From a virus: a stretch of DNA of 24,513 bases. The stretch lies in the IMG/VR virus record IMGVR_UViG_3300050140_000030, positions 1-24,513 of that record; one strand, given 5' to 3'. Within the stretch, counting starts at the first letter, position 1. Each line of letters opens with the position of its first letter. Shown here piece by piece: positions 4,246-17,733 of the stretch. The notes under the pieces were generated by a model that was given only the letters and a program-made list of their open reading frames with translations, was not told the DNA's origin and searched no databases. The position numbers and the translations under genes were made by a program.

Positions 4246-4250
4246 TCCAA

Positions 4251-4267
4251 GCCTCCAAGGTCTCAGA
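4251..4267 (-). repeat. Start-associated repeat copy R1
   Basis: Minus-strand TCTGAGACCTTGGAGGC lies directly before the antirepressor ATG at 4245. Its last part, GGAGG, is the ribosome site. The upstream TCTGAGACCTT is conserved beyond what translation needs. Other copies lie before the genes starting at 7088, 8187 and 8789, with variants at 6529 and 9046. Confidence 0.8.
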
Positions 4268-7088: not shown

Positions 7089-7093
7089 TCCGT

Positions 7094-7112
7094 GCCTCCA
7101 AGGTCTCAGATG
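7094..7112 (-). repeat. Start-associated repeat copy R2
   Basis: Minus-strand CATCTGAGACCTTGGAGGC, then ACGGA, then the ATG at 7088. It is identical to copy R1 over this stretch. Confidence 0.8.
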
Positions 7113-8187: not shown

Positions 8188-8192
8188 GCCAA

Positions 8193-8210
8193 GCCTCCAA
8201 GGTCTCTGAT
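8193..8210 (-). repeat. Start-associated repeat copy R3
   Basis: Minus-strand ATCAGAGACCTTGGAGGC, then TTGGC, then the ATG at 8187. It has one difference (CAGAGA for CTGAGA) from R1 and R2. Confidence 0.75.
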
Positions 8211-8789: not shown

Positions 8790-8942
8790 CTCGAGCCTCC
8801 AAGGTCTCAGACAATTCCTGCTTGTGCCCGTAGTGTATCCACTCTGTATATATCTTCCAGCAGTCAACAGTGAAAGAACTGTGAACACTTCCCAGTATAG
8901 ACAGGATGCCGGAGCAGTCCATTACAACGCAGACATGCGAGT
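8790..8942 (-). promoter_or_regulatory. Leftward control region
   Basis: Gene-free stretch upstream of the leftward operon. On the minus strand it contains TTGACT, AT-rich GATATATACAG and GGATACACTAC, all upstream of repeat R4 at 8795-8811. No pairing of these has ideal 16-18 nt spacing, so the exact leftward promoter cannot be fixed, but the AT-rich composition and the divergent layout support one here. Confidence 0.4.
8795..8811 (-). repeat. Start-associated repeat copy R4
   Basis: Minus-strand GTCTGAGACCTTGGAGGC (last 17 nt in this interval), then TCGAG, then the ATG at 8789. The flanks differ from R1-R3, so conservation is confined to the motif. Confidence 0.78.
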
Positions 8943-10006: not shown

Positions 10007-10257
10007 CCAGGCCGAAGAGTTTCCTCGAGCAGCCGGACGAACAGGGTACCGTGCAGTGCCACTTCCGCGTCCCGCCCGAGGAACGCGAGCAACTGCAGAT
10101 CTGGTGCATCAAGCGACACCGCCCGATGTCGACTTGGCTGCGGGATGCCATGCATGAGAAGTTGGCACGCGAGCTCGAGGAGTACATGCGACATCCGTCC
10201 GCGCCCGCTGAGGAGGAACCGCCGGACATCGGCAGCCTGCTCCTGCGTCACACGTGA
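10003..10257 (+). CDS. Ribbon-helix-helix centromere-binding protein candidate (second)
   Basis: An 84-aa protein whose ATG overlaps the parA stop (ATGA). Residues about 15-60 contain GTVQCHFRVPPEEREQLQIW and STWLRDAMHEKLARELEEYM, a clear strand-helix-helix pattern. The N-terminus is basic, the C-terminus acidic with Pro. Its position directly downstream of a small ParA is that of the partner protein (ParG/ParB-like) in type Ib partition operons. Its last codons lie in octad array C. Confidence 0.72.
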   Translation: MTRPKSFLEQPDEQGTVQCHFRVPPEEREQLQIWCIKRHRPMSTWLRDAMHEKLARELEEYMRHPSAPAEEEPPDIGSLLLRHT

Positions 10258-10293
10258 CCGTGCGACCGTGGTCACATGTGACACCGGTCAGTA
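10246..10293. repeat. Octad array C
   Basis: Six 8-bp units: CGTCACAC, GTGACCGT, GCGACCGT, GGTCACAT, GTGACACC, GGTCAGTA. It overlaps the end of the second RHH gene and a possible promoter. Unit and period match arrays A and B. Confidence 0.82.
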
Positions 10294-10297
10294 ATAC
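10269..10297 (+). promoter_or_regulatory. Possible promoter under array C
   Basis: TGGTCA (10269-10274), a 17-nt spacer, then TAATAC (10292-10297). The -35 match is modest, the -10 is good. The whole site lies in or next to array C, so it would be controlled by the RHH protein. It would drive the structured, apparently non-coding stretch that follows. Confidence 0.45.
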
Positions 10298-10331
10298 TCG
10301 CAGAGATTTGGAATGCCCACAAGGGTTGTAT

Positions 10332-10479
10332 CCTCAATGAGGTCAGCAGGCACTATGCCGCGCTGCCTCCGAGGACAGCGGGTGCCAGCCACACCCGCAA
10401 CATATGGTGCGTACCGACCCTCGCAGGGAACTGGCGCACCAACCCATGCCCCGTATCACCTCACTCGTGCGTGCGGGGC
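10332..10479 (+). ncRNA. Candidate structured small RNA or leader
   Basis: No convincing gene lies between the RHH gene and the lipoprotein. Five successive inverted repeats occur on this strand. They are CCTC-AAT-GAGG (10332-10342); CGCTG-CCT-CCG-AGG-A-CAGCG (10361-10380); GCGGGTG-CCAGCCA-CACCCGC (10378-10398); a nested hairpin with GGTGCG/CGCACC outer arms and CCCT-CGC-AGGG core (10406-10440); and GCCCCG/CGGGGC (10448-10479) followed by CCTTT. The density of paired elements behind a possible promoter suggests a structured RNA. The last hairpin may be its terminator or just precede the next promoter. No known RNA family is recognised. Confidence 0.4.
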
Positions 10480-13251: not shown

Positions 13252-15780
13252 TCACACCTTCCTTTCAAGAATATCTATCCGTCGTGTCTCTTCCTGAAGT
13301 CGTGTCATCAACGTGTCCATAGCCTGACCTACTGCTATGGTTTTGCCGTCTTGTCTGTAGTCGATTGAGCGGACAGTGAAGTTCGTGCCGTCCCCGTTGA
13401 CGGTGTCGCCCACGGAGAGGTCAGTTGCCAGCGAGACATCACGCGTGTACTGCTCTCGCGCCACGGAGACGATGGGCAGCAGTCCATCGGCGTATACTTG
13501 TGCGCCTGCTGCTGAGTTGAAGTTCTCCGCAACGACAAATGCCCTCGACCCTGTTCCGGCTCTGACAGTGGCTGGCAGAGGGTTATCGACGACGAGTACC
13601 AGTGTGTCCACGTAGTTGTCTCCAGTGAACGTGAGCGCAATCGTCTGGAGAGTCACAGGATTGCCAGTGCGGATCATCGTGTTCAGCGGCACGTCCACCG
13701 CCTCGAAGAGATTGAAGGACGAACTCCACATGAAGTAAGAAGACACCCAGCTGTAGTCATTTACTGTGGTGTAGTCGTAGACTGTGGTGTAGTCGTAGAC
13801 TGTGGTGTAGTCGTAGACTAATTGCAAAAGAGTAGCCGTCAGAACTGAGTTTGGCTGGCTACCGCCAGTTGGCACGCGTATACCGATAGAATAATCACCA
13901 TTAGGGTAAGCACTATTCGGAGGGTCATAAACACATGCAAGTAATGATGCCCCACTAGGCAATGAACTTACGGTTGCAGGACTTTGATATATCTGACCAG
14001 AACCGAGAGCAGCGACGGCGACGGCGACCCAATAAGTCCAAACATAGCCGTCATAGCCGGAATAGGAACCCCAAACGATGGTGTACTGTGTCAATGAAAC
14101 AACCTGATAATGAGATCCCGTCTGTACCTGATGCGACCCAGTCAATACCTGATGCGACCCAGTCAATACCTGATGAGAACCAGTTTGTTGATATACCTGC
14201 ACTTGAATATTGCACTGGATGCACTGAACTCCGTAGTCCGCGCCAATGAGGTACAAGTCCTTGAACTCTATCCTGACCGTCGTTACTTGGCTCCCTTGCG
14301 ATGCACTCGTAGGTACGTCAGCCTCGAAGGTGTCACCGATGGTACTGCGCCATGCGTCTTGCCAGATAACCGCTCCACCAGCATCCAAGAGGGTCACACG
14401 ATAGGAGCAGTTTGCAGTCGTGTTCCCTGTTACCGACATGACGTACTGGACAGGTGAAAGTGTGATGTTCTTCGTGAGCGTATCCGTAGAAACCGTACCA
14501 GGAGGATTAAGAACGAAGCCCGCGCCGACCTGTCCATTGAAGTAATGAGTAAACTCCAGTTTGTTGTTCGCGTCCTGCTGGAGCGAGATGAGGACAGTCG
14601 TTGCCGTAACAGGGTTCCAGCCGAATTGAACTCTGTCAAAATACTGGAACAGGGTACTCAGTCCCGCCCGTGATGCGTTCCCTACCGATTTCAACATACC
14701 CAACGCGCCACTTGGAACCGGCAACAGGGTCGTGGCTACCTGTGTGACATCTGTCACTGTGCCCGTCCAGCTGGCTGCGTTATTGAGGGTCAGGATGGTG
14801 GCGGGTGTCGGATATTGCTTGACTGTATAATGTGCCACGACTGCGTCATAGATGTCCTCGTCCCGCTGCCAAGCCGTGAGCGGGTCAATGCGTTGCATAT
14901 GATAGTCTGGTATTTGAGTACTGACGTCCAGCGGGAACACATACAGGTTGCCATTGCGAACACTTGCCTGCGCCAGAGCCTGGATCATGAGCTGTTCGAT
15001 GACATCTATGGGTGTGATGTTCATAAGTAGTTGTGGATAGGTTGCCTGTGCCAGCAGACTCGCGTTGACGATATTCAGGGAGGGTACAATCAACTTGATA
15101 GCGTCAGATGTTGCACCATAGGCTGTCTGGAGAGTCATGATTGCAGTAGTCAGGACGTACTTCTCTGTGGCATCACAGACGTACTGGTACAGGCCGTTTG
15201 CGGCGATCACTGTCTTGATGGTGAATTGGTATTGTTTGAGGCCGCGTTCCCTGACAACCGCTCCTATGGAACTACTCAGGAGCGTTGCACAGGTGAAGTC
15301 CAGTGTCGGCAGGGCAGGCAATAGTTCATCATGCAGCACCACGTCGAAGGCATCCAGCTTGGCATCAGCTGAGTACACATCTATCCCGTATTCTGTGAGT
15401 TCATAGGCCATGACGTAGGTTTTCGGAGACGTCATGGTGGTCCCAACCAAATCAGTCGTCTGAACAGAGAGGATGTGAGACCCGCGTTCCAAAGGAATGC
15501 TGACAGTGTAAACAAGAACGACAAAGTTGGCAGTAACGGTAATGTTGCCCGAGATACTTGTATCCGTTCTTGTCGCGGTTAAGACTCCATCGCTCCAACT
15601 GAGAAAGCGATAGTTGATATTCGAAACAGCCGTTACCGGTGAGCCACTATTTCCGGCATCCACGACCTGAGGAGACGCCCCCACGACAGAACCATTCGCT
15701 CCAGCCGTATAGGTCAGAGTGAACGGATTGGAGTAGAATCCTCGAAGGAAGGTATGGCGCAGGAAAGAGAGGTTATTCAT
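13252..15780 (-). CDS. Large tail-tip/hub-like protein with InlB-like and tandem repeats
   Basis: An 842-aa protein in the distal tail module. Residues about 20-90 match a divergent InlB-B/bacterial repeat (FTLTYTAGANGSVVGASPQV; NYRFLSWSDGV; ITVTANF). Residues about 110-340 look like a tail hub/Tal-type region (DAFDVVLHDELLPALPTLDF; PIDVIEQLMIQALAQASVRN). A beta-rich region follows, with two short tandem repeats at about 532-560 (TGSHQVL units) and 652-676 (VYDYTT units). The C-terminus returns to a beta-rich domain ending in a coiled coil (LMTRLQEETRRIDILERKV). It probably sits at the tail tip and contacts the host surface. The ribosome site (GGGGTGGG) is weak but close to the ATG. Confidence 0.65.
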   Translation of the reverse strand: MNNLSFLRHTFLRGFYSNPFTLTYTAGANGSVVGASPQVVDAGNSGSPVTAVSNINYRFLSWSDGVLTATRTDTSISGNITVTANFVVLVYTVSIPLERGSHILSVQTTDLVGTTMTSPKTYVMAYELTEYGIDVYSADAKLDAFDVVLHDELLPALPTLDFTCATLLSSSIGAVVRERGLKQYQFTIKTVIAANGLYQYVCDATEKYVLTTAIMTLQTAYGATSDAIKLIVPSLNIVNASLLAQATYPQLLMNITPIDVIEQLMIQALAQASVRNGNLYVFPLDVSTQIPDYHMQRIDPLTAWQRDEDIYDAVVAHYTVKQYPTPATILTLNNAASWTGTVTDVTQVATTLLPVPSGALGMLKSVGNASRAGLSTLFQYFDRVQFGWNPVTATTVLISLQQDANNKLEFTHYFNGQVGAGFVLNPPGTVSTDTLTKNITLSPVQYVMSVTGNTTANCSYRVTLLDAGGAVIWQDAWRSTIGDTFEADVPTSASQGSQVTTVRIEFKDLYLIGADYGVQCIQCNIQVQVYQQTGSHQVLTGSHQVLTGSHQVQTGSHYQVVSLTQYTIVWGSYSGYDGYVWTYWVAVAVAALGSGQIYQSPATVSSLPSGASLLACVYDPPNSAYPNGDYSIGIRVPTGGSQPNSVLTATLLQLVYDYTTVYDYTTVYDYTTVNDYSWVSSYFMWSSSFNLFEAVDVPLNTMIRTGNPVTLQTIALTFTGDNYVDTLVLVVDNPLPATVRAGTGSRAFVVAENFNSAAGAQVYADGLLPIVSVAREQYTRDVSLATDLSVGDTVNGDGTNFTVRSIDYRQDGKTIAVGQAMDTLMTRLQEETRRIDILERKV
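13751..13820 (-). repeat. 18-bp tandem repeat encoding VYDYTT units
   Basis: ACTGTGGTGTAGTCGTAG (plus strand) occurs three times without gaps (13763, 13781, 13799), preceded by a degenerate unit. It encodes a six-residue Tyr-rich unit inside the tail-tip protein. Identical DNA copies imply recent expansion or slippage. Confidence 0.85.
14102..14185 (-). repeat. 21-bp tandem repeat encoding TGSHQVL units
   Basis: Four units beginning ACCTGAT (plus strand), two of them identical (ACCTGATGCGACCCAGTCAA, then T), one with three extra bases and one diverged. The unit encodes seven residues in the tail-tip protein, about 95 residues before the VYDYTT repeat. Confidence 0.82.
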
Positions 15781-15789
15781 CCCACCCCG

Positions 15790-16197
15790 CTAGCTCGTCC
15801 CCAGCCCTATCTTCGCCTTTTCAGCTTGGCCCCATGCCACGCACTCTTCGACGTACGCAACGTACGCTGATGATTCGTCGCTCGGAGCTATGCGCAGCAT
15901 CTTTATCTCATCATCGAGACTGTATCTCTGCCTGATTTGCTCCACAACGCGTGCATTGATCAGCAGCACGTGAGGGCTGGCGCTCTTGATGGCGTCCAAT
16001 AGCTCCGGCGTCAATATCGCGCCCTCCACCGTGATCTCCGGTGGCTGGACTGGCAATGCAGCAGTATCAGGCAGGTACACGTACGTCCTGCCGTCAACGG
16101 TGGCCAGCTCCGTCCCGAGACGCTCCATCCCGTCTACGGGGAGCAAGATTTCCACCGTTCGCAAATTGTCGATAAACTTTCCGTAAGCGTAAATCAT
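15790..16197 (-). CDS. Likely tail-fibre chaperone/assembly protein
   Basis: A 135-aa protein behind AGGAGG, formed at the stop of the receptor-binding gene. The N-terminal 60 residues are beta-rich (TVEILLPVDGMERLGTELA). The C-terminal half is helical, with SPHVLLINARVVEQIRQRYS and ESSAYVAYVEECVAWGQAEK, similar in layout to tail-fibre assembly proteins. Phage fibre chaperones are usually encoded just after the fibre gene, as here. The call rests on context and composition only. Confidence 0.45.
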   Translation of the reverse strand: MIYAYGKFIDNLRTVEILLPVDGMERLGTELATVDGRTYVYLPDTAALPVQPPEITVEGAILTPELLDAIKSASPHVLLINARVVEQIRQRYSLDDEIKMLRIAPSDESSAYVAYVEECVAWGQAEKAKIGLGTS

Positions 16198-16206
16198 TCC
16201 AGCCTC

Positions 16207-17733
16207 CTACAAAAGATATAAGGCAGAGCGGAACCCGATATTGTTGTACGAGTCCGCCCGGCCGGTGTTCAAAGGGAGCGCCCACACACCCGCGTTCGAC
16301 GCATCGTCCCAGTGCCCACCCGAACGCGGACACATCTCATTAGACCTGGCATCGTATAGCTGGTCGTTGCCAAAGAGGTTTGACCCACCAACGCCGCCAG
16401 CCAATGGGATTCCTAAACCAGCAGCCGCCCAGGCATTACCGCTTACTGCTTCGCTGAACACCTGGGCAGCGCTACCATAGACTTTTGCCGTGTTGGACGC
16501 GAGCACTGCACCATAGGTTGCCCCGATGTCGTCATAGTTTGCTGCCAGTCCGCTTGCTCCGAACAAGTCGGTAGCCAGAGTATTGCTGCCTGTCAGTGCC
16601 TTCATGGCCTTGACAGTCTTGAGGATAAAATAATCAGTACCGTTCGACCCTAAGCCGAATCCGACTTCCCAGATCAATCCGTTCAGGTCGCAAACCCCGC
16701 TATTTTGTCCGTTGTGCGTGGTCTTGCTGAAGTAGTTAGCGGACCCGGTCTTACCGACGTTGTACGTCCCATTGCCGTCGCTGACATACAGGATGGTTCC
16801 GTCTTGTGCGTCGCCCAGGGCATTGTTGTTGCAGCCCTTGGGGAACATGCTGTTGACCATATACCATGCACAGTTCAGCGTGGATGTGGCTGCCTGACCA
16901 TGCGCGAGAGCCAGCAGCGCGAGCCCCGCCTGAATGAAACGGCTGTTGGCGAAGAAACTGGCGCCCCTCGTCTTGCTTGCGGCTTGCGAGCCTCCGAGGT
17001 TGTTGGCGGGTGCGCCCGTCAGAGCAGAATACATGGCCGCCGACAGGCTGCCACGTTGTGCACTCGTCAGCACGATGCCGTTCTTGATACTGGAGGCTAT
17101 CCCCCCGTTGTTACTGCAGATGTACTTGTCGACGAACACGCCGGGCTGGATAAACCCGCCATCATAGAACATGCGGTGGAGAGCATAGCCATCGGCATTT
17201 GCCGTTGCGACGTCAGCATAAGCGGAGAGCGGCTTGATAGTGACGACGTTGATCGCGTTTCCATTGGAGCCAGTCCCGAACTTGTAGAAGAACGCCGGGA
17301 TCCACACCATGGTCGAGCCATCGGAAAATTGATAGTTCCCGTAGCTATCGCTGGTCAGATCACGCGTTCCGTTGAGTTCTACCATGCCCGCTGGAAGAGC
17401 CCCTGGACAGATACCGACGCCAAACCCCATCTGACCAGGGGTACCGATATGGTTGATTGGAGCCTTCACCGCAAACCCATCTGCCTCTCCGGCGCTGATA
17501 TCGTGGTAGATTGCCGTTCCATTGGTATGTGTTGCCGCCGTGGAACTCTCATATCCTCTCGTCACCGTCCACGTCGTGCCTGCGACTACTGTGACCAGCA
17601 GGGCCTCGGTATCTATAGAGGCGATGAACGGAGCAGCAGGGAACGTGGTAGAAGAAGCAACCGTGATACTTGTGCCGACCGTATCCGTAATGGCCGCTGC
17701 AAGGGCCGTCTGTGCAAAGTTTTTATGATTCAT
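16207..17733 (-). CDS. Lectin-fold (FGE/C-type lectin-like) receptor-binding tail protein
   Basis: A 508-aa protein behind AGGAGG. Residues about 5-75 form an N-terminal attachment repeat common in phage fibres (TSITVASSTTFPAAPFIASI; TTWTVTRGYESSTAA). The remainder has the formylglycine-generating-enzyme-like C-type lectin fold: MVWIPAFFYKF, FVDKYICSNNGG, WYMVNSMFPKG, CDLNGLIWEVGFGL, and a C-terminal CPRSGGHWDDASNAGVWAL, then NNIGFRSAL. This last segment has the pattern of variable regions in diversity-generating retroelement target proteins (GGxWxxxxNAGVxxL...NNNIGFR). It probably recognises the host surface. No reverse transcriptase or template repeat was seen in the window. Confidence 0.75.
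   Translation of the reverse strand: MNHKNFAQTALAAAITDTVGTSITVASSTTFPAAPFIASIDTEALLVTVVAGTTWTVTRGYESSTAATHTNGTAIYHDISAGEADGFAVKAPINHIGTPGQMGFGVGICPGALPAGMVELNGTRDLTSDSYGNYQFSDGSTMVWIPAFFYKFGTGSNGNAINVVTIKPLSAYADVATANADGYALHRMFYDGGFIQPGVFVDKYICSNNGGIASSIKNGIVLTSAQRGSLSAAMYSALTGAPANNLGGSQAASKTRGASFFANSRFIQAGLALLALAHGQAATSTLNCAWYMVNSMFPKGCNNNALGDAQDGTILYVSDGNGTYNVGKTGSANYFSKTTHNGQNSGVCDLNGLIWEVGFGLGSNGTDYFILKTVKAMKALTGSNTLATDLFGASGLAANYDDIGATYGAVLASNTAKVYGSAAQVFSEAVSGNAWAAAGLGIPLAGGVGGSNLFGNDQLYDARSNEMCPRSGGHWDDASNAGVWALPLNTGRADSYNNIGFRSALYLL
16228..16356 (-). other. Candidate retroelement variable region (VR)
   Basis: It encodes from DQLYDARSNEMCPRSGGHW through NNIGFR. Codons at positions that are usually Asn in templates of this family read CAC, GAC, GAT, CCT, ACC, GAC and TAC here. 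Each could arise from AAC or AAT by changes at A only, the mark of adenine-directed mutagenesis. The positions are inferred from remembered family patterns, since the template is not in the window. Confidence 0.45.

Follow-up and report, generated by a model that had tools for sequence, protein, structure and literature searches.

A phage tail-protein gene with an adenine-mutated variable repeat and no adjoining retroelement cassette

Results

Genomic setting and fold of the variable protein

The window, which is the whole stretch of DNA analysed here, is an entire linear IMG/VR record of 24,513 bases and probably a genome fragment. Its minus strand carries a tailed-phage structural operon (Table 1), of which the 1135-aa protein is probably the tape measure. 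Two contigs (L117 and L151) overlap the right end of the window with 99-100% identity and add about 9 kb, which takes in capsid, protease, portal and large terminase and reaches the small terminase. The window had no matches in Rfam or tRNA scans. The motif CTGAGACCTTGGAGGCnnGG occurs four times in the window, always on the minus strand (4247-4266, 7090-7109, 8189-8208 and 8791-8810), with 0.07 occurrences expected; at least two of the four copies lie directly 5' of an early-gene start, and the motif may be a common promoter or ribosome-binding element. The 842-aa protein (13252-15780, minus strand) contains short GSHQVLT-like and VYDYTT-like peptide repeats, the latter corresponding to an 18-nt tandem repeat at 13752-13819.

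Table 1. Features of the tail operon and of the variable repeat locus, in window positions.
Feature	Positions	Strand	Basis or remark
Operon, transcription order, first half: tail terminator, major tail protein, 1135-aa protein, 411-aa protein		-	
Operon, transcription order, second half: 508-aa variable protein gene, 135-aa gene, 842-aa protein, endolysin		-	
DGR variable protein gene, 508 aa, C-type-lectin fold, in tail operon	16207..17733	-	ORF, profile and fold match
170-nt flank 5' of VR	16336..16505	-	67.6% identical to L004
Variable repeat (VR), 115 nt	16221..16335	-	16/17 mismatches to L004 template repeat at template adenines
IMH-like 3' end of VR, GGGTTCCGCTCTGCCT	16221..16236	-	Comparison with TRs; putative role, by analogy with BPP-1 (PMC3240598)
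Cassette-less junction, 9 nt, GAGGCTGGA	16198..16206	-	Cassette site of relatives
135-aa gene	15790..16197	-	Adjoins far end of cassette in relatives; travels with VR gene

Searches of Pfam and NCBIfam found no family for the 508-aa protein itself, and the 135-aa gene product had no family match. With the 508-aa protein as query, IMG/VR gave 80 relatives. A profile built from a 37-sequence alignment matched 5vf4 (E 1e-6) and no other solved protein, and the variable regions of the two aligned with each other. 5VF4 is TaqVP, the variable protein of a diversity-generating retroelement (DGR) (PMC6328139). When the structure of the 508-aa protein was predicted (mean pLDDT 76) and used in a fold search, TaqVP was recovered (E 4e-12) together with the Major Tropism Determinant (Mtd) of BPP-1 (1yu0-1yu4, E 3e-4 to 2e-3). 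An earlier, sequence-only reading of this DNA had described a lectin-fold tail protein with a GGxW...NAGVWAL...-type C-terminal layout. The fold matches bear out the former, and the ORF does end in GGHW...NAGVWAL...NNIGFRSALYLL. Because of its likeness to TaqVP and Mtd and its tail-operon context, the 508-aa protein probably binds receptors.

The variable repeat and the templates of relatives

The closest cassette-bearing relatives, L004, L006 and L007, possess a second, imperfect 115-base copy of the repeat downstream of the gene end. This copy, the template repeat (TR), is preceded by an Avd gene and followed by a reverse transcriptase (RT) gene. The Avd protein matches PF22296 (E 4e-15) and NF033474 (E 9e-21), and the best PDB match of the RT is 8ub7 (E 2e-48), which we take to be the BPP-1 DGR RT.

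The sequence-only reading had suspected a retroelement-like variable C-terminus and had called for a search for a template with adenine-specific mismatches, and such a template was found in L004 (L004:6280-6394). Compared with this TR, which belongs to a relative in another record and has adenines at 32 of its 115 bases, the window VR shows 17 mismatches, and template adenines account for 16 of these (hypergeometric P = 6e-10). The L002 VR differs from the same TR at 19 positions, all of them adenines (P 1e-13), and cognate VRs compared with their own TRs gave 21/22 (L007) and 22/22 (L009) mismatches at adenines. Six codons that had been proposed to be adenine-mutated versions of AAC or AAT are indeed AAC or AAT in the L004 template: residues 474 (AAC to CAC), 476 (AAC to GAC), 477 (AAT to GAT), 487 (AAT to CCT), 490 (AAC to ACC) and 496 (AAC to TAC). 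The repeat that had been placed at 16228-16356 is present, its true extent being 16221-16335. Within the IMH-like stretch the template has one mismatch, GACT versus GCCT. These comparisons demonstrate that the window VR is a true DGR-derived variable repeat.

Positions that are not adenine in the template identify its lineage. At these the window VR is identical to the L004 template in 82 of 83 cases, compared with 80/84 for L007, 72/79 for L009 and 70/79 for L010, and all non-adenine sites diagnostic of TR lineage match the L004 TR in both the window and L002. However, the 170-nt flank just upstream has a lower identity to L004 (67.6%) than to L007, L009 or L010. The VR alone therefore appears to have been overwritten from an L004-type template. 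Such VR-only overwriting would fit homing, the alternative being an exchange with crossovers at both VR edges.

Cassette, junction and hairpin

In the relatives, the VR gene is followed by a hairpin-avd-TR-RT cassette, which in L004 spans the 1,649 nt from the variable protein's stop codon to the start of the following gene (L004:5834-7482). At this site the window has a 9-nt spacer that matches neither cassette end, followed by a next gene whose start is a diverged allele. L002 and L179 have the same cassette-less junction, which is therefore no single-assembly error.

As the sequence-only reading had stated for these 24.5 kb, neither an RT (PF00078) nor a TR or other second repeat copy was found in the window. 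There was no avd match in the window either, the 9-nt junction standing where relatives have avd beside the VR gene. Extending the search beyond the window, as had been suggested, showed both RT and template in relatives, but the overlapping sister contigs, which extend about 9 kb to the small terminase gene, yielded neither. No contig in IMG/VR connected an L004-type TR to the flanks of the window's siblings. Several relatives of the window's phage (32-42 kb) have neither the variable protein nor an RT, and they are thus uninformative on RT location. Four other records (L033, L040, L043 and L050; 29, 41, 99 and 66 kb) encode relatives of the variable protein and have no RT in the record.

Candidate sources outside this group were discarded. 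Matching the TR pattern to 84,980 genomes of bacteria and archaea yielded a single, fortuitous hit, L178, which lies within an autotransporter-like gene and is accompanied by neither RT nor avd. In L115 the DGR core is complete, but the RT identity is only about 64% and the genomic context is unrelated.

Folding of the 3' flanks revealed a hairpin with a GRNA tetraloop 3' of 38 of the 47 RT-linked VR genes, with 0.9 expected from shuffles. This folding search was used instead of a search for perfect stems, which had recovered 11 of the 47 and missed most real hairpins owing to bulges. It found no GRNA-loop hairpin 3' of the VR gene in the window, L002 or L179. Two local features of a complete DGR, avd and this hairpin, are thus absent beside the gene. 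In BPP-1 homing is efficient only with such a hairpin, although some hairpin-independent activity remains (PMC3240598), and the absence of one after the window's gene weakens the case for homing in trans.

Changes of the variable repeat on near-identical backbones

In the 12,301 bases aligned between the window and L002, 8 SNPs lie outside the VR, in addition to a cluster at 10239-10361, where about 17 differences lie near the L002 contig end and L179 agrees with the window. The VR itself has differences at 19 of its 115 positions; 18 of these are template adenines, and at several sites the window and L002 each differ from the template and from one another. L003 is 100% identical to the window over 6,575 nt. 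Its contig ends inside the VR, probably by an assembly break of the kind possible at hypervariable sites.

L179 shares the cassette-less junction and has one SNP relative to the window in 6.7 kb downstream of the VR, while both its VR and the preceding stretch of about 160 nt belong to the L004/L008 type; judged from these alignments, a recombinational swap of the L179 VR segment is proven. The L179 and L008 VRs are one base apart, although the phages otherwise differ. L004, L005 and L008 have identical 170-nt flanks and different VRs. Most of the TR and RT of L005 has been deleted between short matching stretches (GGGAACTG and GGGCACTG), and L008 has no cassette. L005, whose endolysin region is about 98% identical, has its VR gene, hairpin, avd and 135-aa gene located after the lysis genes (L005:3385-5888), so the cassette changes genomic position. 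The L008 VR domain is joined to a different N-terminus and has different neighbouring genes (L008:2760-4403); by this arrangement, it is apparently a horizontally swapped binding tip.

Near-identical cassette-less sisters thus differ within the VR, so the VR undergoes renewal although no retroelement adjoins it. The 508-aa gene is a DGR target gene by its adenine-confined VR, its lectin fold and the restriction of variation to the VR.

Action at a distance within the family

Two related records show VRs remote from their RT. In G086 (the 48-kb record holding L149), a second variable protein lies about 15 kb from the TR and RT and has 14 of 14 mismatches at adenines; in G085 (the record holding L081), the distance is about 19 kb and the count 17 of 17. 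Distant action therefore occurs in this family.

Discussion

The window gene resembles the BPP-1 DGR (Mtd, Avd, bRT) in that it encodes a lectin-fold tail protein and carries an adenine-confined VR at its 3' end, and in the fold match of its product to Mtd. The relatives of the window share with BPP-1 the order of VR gene, hairpin, avd, TR and RT, and an Avd that matches NF033474. Unlike in BPP-1, no avd, TR, RT or hairpin adjoins the window gene. TaqVP, from a prophage DGR of Thermus aquaticus, is the best profile and fold match and its VR aligns with that of the window; however, the TaqVP gene adjoins its own DGR, and the window protein is longer and has a different N-terminal part. DGR targets that are remote from an RT or lack one have precedents in bacteria and gut prophages. 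Distal second VRs have been reported in gut prophages (PMC12629997), and Treponema denticola has targets far from the core element as well as target genes in isolates without RT and TR (PMC4891356). The T. denticola targets are in bacterial chromosomes, whereas here the target is in a phage and near-clonal cassette-less siblings show differences confined to the VR. Phage DGRs with a distant VR, such as G085 and G086, share the action at a distance, but they still encode an RT, and none was found for the window's phage.

We consider it likely that the 508-aa gene encodes a DGR variable protein whose VR homed from an L004-like template and is renewed from outside its locus, mainly by homing in trans together with recombination. 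The VR would have been copied by adenine-mutagenic homing from a template nearly identical to that of L004. Since neither the avd-TR-RT cassette nor the recognition hairpin adjoins the gene in the window's lineage, a source external to the locus would have to supply new VR sequences. The principal route would most likely be homing in trans by an L004-type DGR, whose RT presumably acts from elsewhere in the genome or from a co-resident relative, with recombination swapping whole VR segments as a supplementary route. The general interpretation of the sequence-only reading, an adenine-mutated VR with its element distant or lost, is thus supported. Its choice between a distant element and a fossil protein holds as to the lack of a local cassette; a simple frozen fossil is argued against by the variation among sisters, which is confined to the VR.

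It is plausible, although we would stop short of calling it probable, that the cassette is permanently gone and that ready-made VRs arrive by homologous exchange with cassette-bearing relatives, with no homing. This differs from our preferred explanation in the route and agrees with it on renewal from outside. The swapped segment of L179, set in window-like downstream sequence, speaks for exchange, as do the near-identity of the L179 and L008 VRs and the missing recognition hairpin. However, the window and L002 differ there only inside the VR and are identical on both sides, so that a donor with a window-type flank would be needed, and this flank was found elsewhere only in the cassette-less L002 and the VR-truncated L003. 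For the difference between these two VRs, homing in trans is somewhat more likely than recombination alone.

A VR that no longer changes in the window's lineage after loss of the cassette is improbable. The missing cassette and hairpin would suit it, and so would the RT-less T. denticola isolates (PMC4891356), but L002 and L179, near-clonal sisters sharing the cassette-less junction, carry different VRs, which largely refutes it. It is less probable still that a cassette present beside the gene was skipped in assembly. In its favour, VR and TR are repeats and the VR is where the L003 contig breaks off, but three records have the identical junction, two of these coming from different named samples, and neither the 9-nt spacer nor the diverged start of the next gene fits such an error. 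Phage tail tips often evolve quickly, and the VR might be imagined as a receptor-binding tip of this ordinary kind, with no part played by a DGR. The confinement of mismatches to adenines of another genome's template (P 6e-10 in the window, 1e-13 in L002) already refutes this, relatives carry complete avd-TR-RT cassettes, and we give it practically no credence.

Large metagenomic DGR surveys seek an RT adjoining the VR, and Roux et al. state that their own survey approach would miss remote targets (PMC8144416). The present case shows near-clonal phages among which cassette-less alleles circulate with several different VRs, and it opens two questions to testing: whether a VR without a recognition hairpin can still be rewritten in trans, and whether phages acquire diversified binding tips from relatives that have a retroelement. 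A bolder version, which we regard as unlikely, is that the lineage has no DGR or hairpin of its own and that its receptor-binding patch is rewritten by retroelements that belong to other phages, or to prophages, within the same cell. If this were true, targeted hypermutation would be a shared resource of the phage community.
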